The notes beneath the pieces are model-generated. The model saw nothing but the letters and a program-made list of their open reading frames with translations, made no database searches and had not been told where the DNA came from. From contig NZ_BCUT01000001.1 of NCBI RefSeq assembly GCF_001591365.1, forward strand, positions 1,240,001 to 1,304,000: a DNA stretch of 64,000 nucleotides. Direction: 5' to 3'. This document shows, piece after piece, positions 60,239 to 63,008 of this stretch. Position 1 is the stretch's first letter. Each line of letters begins with the position of its first letter. This DNA is from Variovorax paradoxus NBRC 15149 (GTDB lineage: Bacteria > Pseudomonadota > Gammaproteobacteria > Burkholderiales > Burkholderiaceae_C). Both the position numbers and the translations under genes were made by a program.

Positions 60239-61702
60239 GTGTCGCAATCTCCCCGGTTCCGCTATGAAGAAATTGCCGATTTCGTGGCCGGCCTGGCCGG
60301 CCGCGGCACGCTGAAGCCGGGTGCGCGGGCGCCTTCGCTGCGCGAGATCAGCACGCAGCAGCGCACCAGCCTGAGCACCGCGGTGCAGGCCTACCGCCTG
60401 CTCGAAGACCGCGGCATCCTCGAAGTGCGGCCGCAGTCGGGCTACTACGTCGCCAAGCCGCCGCCCGCCCTGCCCGTGCCCACCACCGCGCGCCATTCGA
60501 TCCGGCCCGCCAAGGTGGAGCTGTCGGGCCTCATGCTCGACCTGCTGAAGCACGCGTCGGACGAAGCCTTCGTGCCGCTCGGCTGCGCCATTCCCAACCA
60601 GCGGCTGCTGTCTTCCTCCAGGCTCGACCTCGTGCTGGCCCGCACGGCCCGCGTGAAGGGCAGCCAGTGCAACACCTACTCGCCGCCGCACGGCGAGATG
60701 TCGCTGCGGCTGGAGATCGCGCGCCGCGCGCTGCGCTTCGGACAGGCGCTGGCACCCGACGACATCGCCATCACCTGCGGCTGCACCGAGGCGCTGGCGC
60801 TCGCGCTCGATGCGGTCACGGAGCCGGGCGACACGGTCGCCATCGAATCGCCGACCTACTTCGGGCTGTTGCAGGTGCTGCGCGCAAAGAGACTGAAGGT
60901 GGTCGAGCTGCCGACCGATGCGGACACCGGCGTCGCGGTCGATGCGCTGCGCGAGGTCGTGGCCTCGGGCAAGGTGCGCGCCTGCGTGCTGGCGTCGAGC
61001 TTCAGCAATCCGCTCGGCTGCACCATGCCCGAAGAGAACAAGCGCGCCGTGCTGCGCATCCTGGCCGAACACGGCGTGCCGCTGATCGAGGACGACGTGT
61101 ACGGCGACGTCCATTTCGGCGAGGAGCGGCCTCTGCCCTTCAGCGCGCTCGACACGCACGACAACGTCATCTATTGCGGCTCCTTCTCCAAGACGCTCGC
61201 GCCGGGCTACCGCATCGGCTGGATCGCCACGCGCCGCCACATGGCCCGCGTGCTCGAAACCAAGTTCGCCACCAGCCTGGCGACGCCGGTGCTGACGCAG
61301 GTGGCGCTCGCCACCTTCCTGTCGAACGGCGACTACGACCGCCACCTGCGCCGCGTCCGGCGCGAGTTCGCCGACACGCTGGCCCGCATGACGCGGGTGA
61401 TCGAGCAGGCGTTCCCGCCGGGCACCAAGGTGTCGAGGCCGGCCGGCAACTTCGTGCTGTGGGTCGAACTGCCCGAGCCCGCGGACACGCGGCTCCTGTT
61501 TGCGCAGGCGCTGGAGAAACGCATCTGCTTTGCGCCCGGCGTGGTGTTCTCGGCCAGCGGCAAGTACGCCCACTGCCTGCGCCTGAGCGGCGGCCACGGC
61601 TGGGACGCGCGCATCGAGAAGGGCCTGCGCACGCTCGGCGCCATGGCGGGCCGGACCGCAGGTCTTGCAGGATCAGGCAAGAAGCCTGTTCGATCCGGAT
61701 AA
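60239..61702 (+). CDS. MocR-family (GntR/aminotransferase) transcriptional regulator
   Basis: The 487-residue protein fuses a GntR winged helix (about 8-72, LREISTQQRTSLSTAVQAYRLLE by its features) to a PLP-binding aminotransferase-like domain with Lys318 in GSFSKTLAPGYRIGW and SNPLGCTM for the cofactor ring. It should use PLP or an aldehyde/amine adduct as effector. The start is GTG 60239 with CAGGAG eight bases before. It is divergent from an aminotransferase across direct repeats; the SDR-like gene lies 88 bases downstream. Confidence 0.92.
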   Translation: MSQSPRFRYEEIADFVAGLAGRGTLKPGARAPSLREISTQQRTSLSTAVQAYRLLEDRGILEVRPQSGYYVAKPPPALPVPTTARHSIRPAKVELSGLMLDLLKHASDEAFVPLGCAIPNQRLLSSSRLDLVLARTARVKGSQCNTYSPPHGEMSLRLEIARRALRFGQALAPDDIAITCGCTEALALALDAVTEPGDTVAIESPTYFGLLQVLRAKRLKVVELPTDADTGVAVDALREVVASGKVRACVLASSFSNPLGCTMPEENKRAVLRILAEHGVPLIEDDVYGDVHFGEERPLPFSALDTHDNVIYCGSFSKTLAPGYRIGWIATRRHMARVLETKFATSLATPVLTQVALATFLSNGDYDRHLRRVRREFADTLARMTRVIEQAFPPGTKVSRPAGNFVLWVELPEPADTRLLFAQALEKRICFAPGVVFSASGKYAHCLRLSGGHGWDARIEKGLRTLGAMAGRTAGLAGSGKKPVRSG

Positions 61703-61790
61703 CGCCCGAGGCCCCATCCGCGAGAGACTTGCCTCCATGCCCGGCGCAGTGTTGCGCCATGGTCCACACCCATCGCACGAGGAGAGTCTC

Positions 61791-62543
61791 ATGAGCGCAA
61801 TCCAGGAAAAAGTCGTCCTCATCACGGGCGCAAGTGGTGGCATCGGCGCGGCGGCCGCGCGGCTCCTGGCGCGGCGCGGCGCCAAGGTGGTGCTCGGCGC
61901 GCGCCGCACCGACCGGCTCGAAGCGCTGGCCGAAGAAATCGCCGCCGCCGGCGGCACCGCGCACTTCCAGCGGCTGGACGTCACCTACCGGCCCGACGTG
62001 GAAGCATTTGCCGAATTCGCACTCGAAACGCACGACCGCATCGACGTGCTGGTGAACGCCGCGGGCGTGATGCCGCTGTCGCCGCTGTGGACGCGCAAGG
62101 TCGACGAATGGGAGCTGATGCTCGACGTCAACCTGCGCGGCGTGCTGCTGGGCATTGCGGCGGTGCTGCCGACCATGCAGGAACAGGGCTGGGGCCACAT
62201 CGTCAACGTGGCGCCGGTGCCCGCGCAGGGCGTGTCGCCGAACTCGGCCGTGTATTGCGGCACGCAGTATGCGGTGGACGCCATCTCCGAGGGCCTGCGG
62301 CAGGAGCATGCAGGGAAGGTACGCGTGACGGTGGTGCGCCCCGACGTGAGCGAGGCGGACAGCACGCTGGCCGACCGCATCGCAGCCTGCAGCAGCTTCG
62401 AGCGCATGGTCACGCGGCGGCGCATCGCAGTGCCCGCGGAGGCCGTGGCCCGCTCGATTGCGGGCGCCATCGAGGGCAGCAGCATCTCGGCCCCGCGGCG
62501 CCCCGCGTGGCGCCCAAGGCCGGCCGAGCACGCGGCGTTCTGA
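61791..62543 (+). CDS. SDR-fold protein lacking the catalytic Ser and Lys
   Basis: The 250-residue Rossmann protein of the short-chain dehydrogenase family has intact coenzyme motifs TGASGGIG and NAAG. Tyr155 is present, but position 142, normally the catalytic Ser, is Pro (NVAPVPA), and position 159, normally Lys, is Gln (YCGTQ). The spacing (13 and 4) matches active SDRs, so alignment is not in doubt. It probably binds NAD(P) without normal dehydrogenase activity. It starts at ATG 61791 behind GGAGAG. It follows MocR and converges on cynS. Confidence 0.88.
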   Translation: MSAIQEKVVLITGASGGIGAAAARLLARRGAKVVLGARRTDRLEALAEEIAAAGGTAHFQRLDVTYRPDVEAFAEFALETHDRIDVLVNAAGVMPLSPLWTRKVDEWELMLDVNLRGVLLGIAAVLPTMQEQGWGHIVNVAPVPAQGVSPNSAVYCGTQYAVDAISEGLRQEHAGKVRVTVVRPDVSEADSTLADRIAACSSFERMVTRRRIAVPAEAVARSIAGAIEGSSISAPRRPAWRPRPAEHAAF

Positions 62544-62564: not shown

Positions 62565-63008
62565 TCAGTAGGTCTTGTAGGGCAGGAACTTGCCCGACAG
62601 CACCACGTTGACGCGGTCGCCCTTGGGGTCGGCCTGGCGCTGGATGTCCATGCTGAAGTCGATCGCGCTCATGATGCCGTCGCCGAATTCTTCATGGATC
62701 AGTTCCTTGATGGTGGTGCCATACACGCTCACCACCTCGTACCAGCGGTAGATGAGCGGATCGGTCGGCACCGGCGTGGGCAGCGAGCCCTTGTAGGGCA
62801 CCACCTGGAGCCACTTCTGCTCTGCGGCCGTGAGGCCGAAAATCTTGCCCACGACCTTGGCCTGCTTGTCGTCGAGCGTCATCTGGCCGAGGCAGGCGGC
62901 GGTGGTCCACTCCTTGGAGAGGCCGACCTTCTTTGCCACGTCGGCCCACTGGATGCCCTTGGACACCTTCACGGTGATGATTTTCTCGGTGACGTCGTTG
63001 CGGTTCAT
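62565..63008 (-). CDS. cynS: Cyanate hydratase CynS
   Basis: Converts cyanate and bicarbonate to carbon dioxide and ammonia via carbamate. It has 147 residues against 156 in E. coli. The catalytic Arg88 and Glu91 (YRWYEVVSVYG) and Ser114 (GIMSAIDF) are all present, at a constant offset of eight from E. coli Arg96, Glu99 and Ser122. The end GKFLPYKTY is close to the E. coli KFLPY-x end. It starts at ATG 63008. No carbonic anhydrase gene accompanies it here, and it stands alone between the SDR-like and DUF1348 genes. Confidence 0.95.
   Translation of the reverse strand: MNRNDVTEKIITVKVSKGIQWADVAKKVGLSKEWTTAACLGQMTLDDKQAKVVGKIFGLTAAEQKWLQVVPYKGSLPTPVPTDPLIYRWYEVVSVYGTTIKELIHEEFGDGIMSAIDFSMDIQRQADPKGDRVNVVLSGKFLPYKTY

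Follow-up and report, generated by a model that had tools for sequence, protein, structure and literature searches.

Proteins with an SDR fold can act as NADPH sensors, as HSCARG/NMRAL1 and NmrA do. BdcA from E. coli is an NADPH-binding SDR that has a physiological role and for which the consulted part of its description names no reaction (PMC4171110). MAT2B, according to the consulted part of PMC3793261, is an SDR-fold, NADP-binding regulatory subunit of another enzyme. In E. coli, as far as the consulted parts of the papers tell, YqhC responds to aldehydes and drives yqhD (PMC6115493, PMC12274486), which is activated by YqhC on aldehyde exposure (PMC6115493). The searched part of PMC10211241 contained no SDR example for the terms used, and no literature on the protein described below was found among the matches listed; most subscription papers lay outside the scope of the search, and we make no claim of absence from print. 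The closest solved relative of this protein, both by sequence (E 1.5e-62) and by predicted fold, is 3tfo, a putative 3-oxoacyl-ACP reductase from Sinorhizobium meliloti.

The gene, which we refer to as the pseudo-SDR gene, lies in a window of 64,000 nucleotides (the whole stretch of DNA that was analysed) from Variovorax paradoxus NBRC 15149. The gene and the parts of it that concern the former active site are:

61780..61785, + strand: probable ribosome-binding site AGGAGA, in a GAG-rich stretch conserved in the upstream alignment
61791..62543, + strand: pseudo-SDR gene, 250 aa, with an intact Rossmann half and with the catalytic Ser and Lys replaced by Pro and Gln
62058..62060, + strand: codon 90, Ala, by which the second Asn of NNAG is gone (NAAG), in 35/35 orthologues
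62130..62132, + strand: codon 114, the Asn of the tetrad, retained
62214..62216, + strand: codon 142, CCG (Pro), in place of the catalytic Ser
62253..62255, + strand: codon 155, Tyr (TAT), retained
62265..62267, + strand: codon 159, CAG (Gln), where YxxxK has its catalytic Lys
62343..62345, + strand: codon 185, Asp, by which the PG glycine is gone (PD), Asp being present in 34/35 orthologues
62478..62540, + strand: C-terminal tail, residues 230-250, which replaces the canonical last segment (EIVVRPT)

The pseudo-SDR is a classical SDR by descent and fold, as seen from its Pfam match to adh_short (PF00106, E 6e-45), its glycine motif and its SDR fold. In alignments with the nearest relatives and with 3tfo, the catalytic Ser and Lys fall opposite Pro142 and Gln159; translation and alignment thus agree with the preliminary description, which had reported Ser142 to Pro and Lys159 to Gln. 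Its further statement that the Rossmann motifs and Tyr155 are intact is borne out as well: within the glycine motif G13 and G19 are kept in all 35 distinct full-length Variovorax orthologues and G17 in 33, and Tyr155 is invariant. The Asn-Ser-Tyr-Lys tetrad is incomplete, two of its four residues being lost and Asn114 and Tyr155 being kept in 35/35 orthologues, and both the NNAG and the PG motifs are broken. R38, R39 and D63 are also kept in the clade, while five hallmarks changed together.

The losses are real, as had been claimed, and Pro142 and Gln159 are fixed in every one of the 35 distinct orthologues, none of which keeps Ser or Lys; strain-specific decay and sequencing error are thereby ruled out. 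The underlying codons vary synonymously (CCG in 29, CCC in five and CCA in one orthologue at position 142; CAG in 34 and CAA in one at position 159), as does that of Tyr155, and the Pro142/Gln159 pattern is more than chance. The related-locus search of the genome-contig collection gave 44 loci, among them 29 Variovorax loci with 72-98% identity. In a set of 61 relatives, which overlaps with that collection, the pseudo-SDR is present in 17 of the 37 same-genus genomes at 72-100% identity (full length in 16, in two pieces in genome G028) and absent from all 24 genomes of other genera, where the best matches reach at most 58% identity. The orthologues comprise 44 full-length open frames, of which 35 are distinct, nine identical nucleotide sequences having been dropped.

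A degenerate DNA pattern for Y-x-GTQ matched four of 299 family genomes, these four being the Variovorax genomes of the sample, and a profile search (A2) of 399 genomes of the order matched 10 genomes at E<=1e-65, two of Variovorax and eight of other genera, the matches in the latter all having Ser and Lys. Among 81 other PF00106 matches of the same genome, compared in one global alignment in which individual rows may be misaligned, position 142 is Ser in 68 and Pro in none, position 155 is Tyr in 67, and position 159 is Lys in 73, Arg in four, Asn in two, a gap in two and Gln in none. Departures from the tetrad occur in several of these matches; tetrad loss in itself is therefore nothing singular, and the earlier assertion that only a few SDR-fold proteins have abandoned catalysis was overstated. 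Some of the deviating proteins presumably belong to known divergent SDR families. In four aligned paralogues (L124, L151, L157 and L166) the Tyr is replaced by Ser or Thr and the Lys by Arg.

The origin of the altered form can be traced. Its closest canonical relatives of full length, 44-61% identical to it, still have Ser, Tyr, Lys and NNAG, and in a tree of 12 pseudo-SDRs and 16 other SDRs the pseudo-SDR rows form one branch (support 100/100, length 0.55), in agreement with a FastTree of 98 rows. The losses of Ser and Lys have a single origin, on a long branch that also carries the changes of NNAG to NAAG and of PG to PD and the replacement of the C-terminal tail; the alignment behind the tail and hallmark comparison comprises the window and 38 of the 61 listed loci. 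At 25 positions at least 95% of the 35 pseudo-SDRs share a residue that is found in at most one of 15 canonical sequences, and besides P142 and Q159 these include A90, D185, W100, R102, W134, H173, R196, R205 and R211. By its sequence, then, the protein is a conserved, singly derived SDR pseudoenzyme.

An AF2 model built from a diverse alignment of 37 rows has a classical SDR fold (pLDDT 82.7, pTM 0.81), with pLDDT under 50 for residues 190-210 and 231-250; an earlier, poor model (pLDDT 59.3), made from 28 close sequences, was left unused. The tail from residue 230 to 250 is both fast evolving and modelled with low confidence. Foldseek places 3tfo first (E 1.6e-24), with many classical SDRs ranking below it. 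Binding of NADP(H) is suggested by the glycine motif, D63 and R38/R39, all of which are retained. The preliminary description had named NmrA-like regulators as an example of SDR-fold proteins turned to sensing; the Pfam matches at E<=0.001 include no NmrA family, and membership of that family was rejected.

The preserved and the newly fixed residues could also belong to an active enzyme with an altered mechanism, in which Tyr155 and Asn114, with clade residues such as His/Cys156, His173 and the lid arginines, would act on a substrate derived from an aldehyde, either by slow redox chemistry or in a reaction of non-redox type. The invariance of Tyr155 and Asn114, the conservation of the gene and the 25 clade-fixed positions, W100, R102, W134, H173, R196, R205 and R211 among them, are in keeping with such an activity. 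However, Ser and Lys are both replaced, as is the PG glycine, and the lid and the last segment are rebuilt; the loss of the lysine usually abolishes SDR activity. We consider such an enzyme unlikely, if still worth keeping in mind, and the pseudo-SDR is a stable protein that has probably lost SDR chemistry.

The gene is kept under purifying selection. The median pairwise dN/dS over residues 1-229 is 0.25 in the 35 orthologues, and 0.13 and 0.20 within the two pseudo-SDR subclades (12 and 23 sequences), the median of a canonical paralogue set (n=8) being 0.16; by pooled pairs the same residues give 0.25 for the pseudo-SDR vs 0.22 for the paralogue. Constraint is unevenly spread along the protein. 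The pooled values are 0.11 vs 0.15 for residues 7-40 and 0.18 vs 0.22 for residues 85-120, whereas the pseudo-SDR is looser in residues 136-163 (0.38 vs 0.13), 177-189 (0.72 vs 0.32), 190-212 (0.64 vs 0.28) and 213-229 (0.16 vs 0.06). The former active-site half is thus under weaker or different constraint than in the canonical paralogue and its partial relaxation is real; Pro142 and Gln159 are invariant. Since the changes are real, fixed in the orthologues and carried by a gene under purifying selection, the description of the product as a probable pseudoenzyme stands.

Relaxation of this kind might also mark a decaying former SDR, conserved through recent common ancestry, a reading to which the elevated dN/dS of the active-site half, lid and tail lends some weight, as do the large in-frame deletions of a related SDR in genomes G003 and G013. 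It appears quite improbable, given 44 full-length open frames (35 distinct), an overall dN/dS of about 0.25 and a conserved upstream element (see below). A broken frame occurs only in loci L017 and L059, apparently the same MAG, both of which were left out of the dN/dS calculations and trees.

The deletion-bearing SDRs of G003 (L221:905-1393, 163 aa) and G013 (L229:834-1421, 196 aa) have open frames, carry the upstream operator described below and have lost parts of the active-site region in frame. The whole Ser-Tyr-Lys stretch is missing from the G003 copy, whereas in the G013 copy the Ser segment is missing and Arg stands in place of the Lys. Neither copy has lost its Rossmann half or its C-terminal end. 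Within the same SDR group and genus these may possibly represent a second route of catalytic loss.

The regulatory context of the pseudo-SDR gene was predicted from its upstream DNA and from its neighbours, which in the window are:

60239..61702, + strand: MocR-type regulator (GntR and aminotransferase domains), the upstream neighbour in 3/29 genome-contig loci
61670..61701, + strand: predicted AraC_N (YqhC-type) operator, with the core GGATCAGGCAAGAA at 61670-61683
62568..63008, − strand: cynS, cyanase, the convergent downstream neighbour in 29/29 genome-contig loci

A conserved element with the core GGATCAGGCAARAA lies 120-132 bp before the ATG in all 28 pseudo-SDR loci tested (L059 was left out), and a block containing ATCAGGCAARAA is common to these 28 upstream regions whatever gene precedes. 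The element may have XylS-like half-site geometry. A weight matrix was made from 11 sites flanking AraC_N genes, that of yqhD included and no pseudo-SDR site among them, which were hand-picked for a GGCAA core. It scores at least 20.9 in 28/28 pseudo-SDR upstream regions, a level not approached in 2,800 mononucleotide shuffles, the best of which reached 17.4, and in a scan of the 64-kb window the SDR site scores 20.9, the next best 14.6. The predicted operator overlaps the 3' end of the MocR ORF, falling in its last codons. Exact copies of the 14-mer GGATCAGGCAAGAA number 22, spread over 13 of the 61 genomes, and its reversed control pattern has none: eight copies are before the pseudo-SDR, 11 beside AraC_N genes and three before related SDRs (G043, G003 and G013), the one in G043 being also beside an AraC_N gene. 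In genome G007 the usual site, about 130 bp ahead of the pseudo-SDR, is accompanied by a further exact 14-mer (L224:1501) 264 bp ahead of the gene. A regulon with several copies of the exact 30-bp SDR-type element was rejected for the NBRC 15149 genome, where one copy was found when up to 3 mismatches were allowed.

Two AraC_N regulators are encoded in the NBRC 15149 genome. One (L187) adjoins the [2Fe-2S] subunit of an aldehyde oxidoreductase type and carries GGATCGGGCAAGAA upstream; the other (L188) is divergent from an aldo-keto reductase gene and carries GGAGAAATAGGCAAGGA. In E. coli, the yqhC-yqhD intergenic DNA contains TCTGGAGAAATAGGCAAG and has 18 nt in common with the L188 promoter. 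At L225, another of the scanned loci, the AraC_N neighbours are subunits ([2Fe-2S] and FAD) of the molybdopterin aldehyde oxidoreductase type, and the subunits of L225 and L187 we take to belong to PaoAB-like aldehyde oxidoreductases. An AraC_N (PF06719) regulator lies beside the SDR in four of the eight canonical-relative loci scanned (L018, L176, L177 and L179), the others having an AraC regulator of another type (Cupin_6; L019), LysR (L029 and L060) or an integrase-family gene (L030) as neighbour. By the weight matrix, five of 13 related SDR loci score above the shuffle maximum (L018, L177, L178, L221 and L229), weaker sites occur in L030 (16.7), L176 (16.1) and L179 (13.2), and L029, L060, L062, L020 and L026 have no operator-like site.

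The association with AraC_N regulators has its bounds. An unbiased count of 7-mers, which took 30 of the 31 AraC_N loci (L190, cut by a contig end, was dropped), found AGGCAAG in 10/30 AraC_N upstream regions vs 5/30 control regions and did not rank it at the top, so the site fits some AraC_N subtypes and not all. AraC_N genes (E<=1e-20) are present in 16 of the 17 carrier genomes, G010 (a draft, 89% complete) being the exception, but also in 17 of 20 same-genus non-carriers, and lineage confounds the comparison. AraC_N genes of the L187 type (>=72% identical) occur in 10/17 carriers and 0/20 non-carriers, a distribution that shared lineage alone could explain. Copies of the L188 type (>=83%) were found among the fetched loci in at least 11 genomes, all of them carriers, for which shared ancestry could account; two non-carriers (G027 and G035) have relatives of the aldo-keto reductase at 75-77%.

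As the upstream element matches one beside aldehyde-defence genes and the protein is intact across related species, the pseudo-SDR probably helps the cell to deal with aldehydes in a way that is non-enzymatic or unusual, and we place it as a probable member of a YqhC-like aldehyde response. A role in cyanate metabolism together with the cyanase might be read from the constant presence of the convergent cynS, whose match ends at most 60 bp from that of the SDR in 17/17 carrier genomes. It seems very improbable, for 14 of the 37 genus genomes have cynS without such an SDR (no SDR was found in the up to 7 kb examined around cynS in these), the upstream element is of the aldehyde-regulon type, and the convergent arrangement means that the two genes do not form one operon. 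On a cynS tree of 49 sequences, the base of which is poorly resolved, the presence of the SDR requires three changes vs a shuffle mean of 12.4. The cynS match is confined to 89 aa at L039:4756-5022 (Variovorax sp. E3) and to 90 aa in G007, which may be the same strain; the gene may be truncated there. In the window a DUF1348 gene follows cynS, and the ABC-transporter genes that accompany cynS in many relatives are absent. The partnership with MocR suggested by the preliminary description, in which the protein would be an accessory or redox sensor of that regulator, is scarcely credible and was rejected. In the window 88 bp separate the end of the MocR ORF from the gene, both being on the + strand, and MocR and the aminotransferase are found upstream in L031, L032 and L036. 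These are only 3/29 loci (L059, with just 238 bp upstream, is uninformative), other genes being found elsewhere, and synteny thus largely refutes the partnership; the element, which matches AraC_N/YqhC-side sites instead, is conserved whatever gene precedes.

We propose that the pseudo-SDR is a lineage-specific NADP(H)-binding pseudoenzyme of a YqhC-like aldehyde regulon, governed by the predicted operator and having an accessory or sensor role, a reading to which we give a probability of roughly 0.55. Its ancestor would have been an SDR of the 3tfo-like subfamily, of which several members lie beside AraC_N regulators with Ser-Tyr-Lys kept, and would have come to lie beside cynS in Variovorax. 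The catalytic Ser and Lys and the glycine of PG were lost a single time, and the putative NADP(H)-binding half and the AraC_N-type operator were retained. An AraC_N (YqhC-type) activator that senses aldehydes would then cause the pseudo-SDR to be made along with the products of the aldehyde oxidoreductase and aldo-keto reductase genes, and the protein would carry out no hydride transfer but would bind NADP(H) and/or carbonyl compounds, as an accessory or a sensor. It is a rather doubtful extension of this proposal that the Variovorax regulon recruited dead SDRs repeatedly, as the full-length Pro/Gln form beside cynS and as the "shell" forms of G003 and G013, which would serve under the same operator as NADPH- or carbonyl-binding sensors or partners and not as reductases. 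If the proposal is true, the protein is a bacterial instance of a classical SDR that became a conserved pseudoenzyme, one whose origin can be traced, whose regulatory element can be recognised and whose canonical relatives are close enough for comparison, which would make it a clean test case for the use of the SDR fold once its chemistry is gone; it would also suggest that labelling every PF00106 gene an oxidoreductase misses some regulatory or binding proteins.

Compared with the known systems, BdcA differs from the pseudo-SDR in that it keeps Ser132-Tyr146-Lys150, according to the consulted part of PMC4171110, and MAT2B in that its Ser-Tyr-Lys triad is kept and it is a nucleotide-sugar-type SDR, according to that of PMC3793261. 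The Rossmann motifs of 3tfo are the same as those of the pseudo-SDR, but 3tfo keeps NNAG, Ser, Tyr, Lys and PG. The AraC_N-linked canonical SDRs (L018, L176, L177 and L179) form a sister subfamily beside AraC_N regulators, with an upstream site that is strong in L018 and L177 and weaker in L176 and L179; unlike the pseudo-SDR they keep Ser and Lys, and L018 also keeps the last segment. The yqhD-dkgA aldehyde response of E. coli, whose genome served as a control and likewise contains AraC_N, has a YqhC-type regulator and a similar operator core, but its targets are active reductases and include no pseudo-SDR. HSCARG/NMRAL1 and NmrA, unlike which the pseudo-SDR has no NmrA Pfam match and is a classical SDR by sequence, share with it the idea proposed here, that of a non-catalytic, dinucleotide-binding SDR fold.
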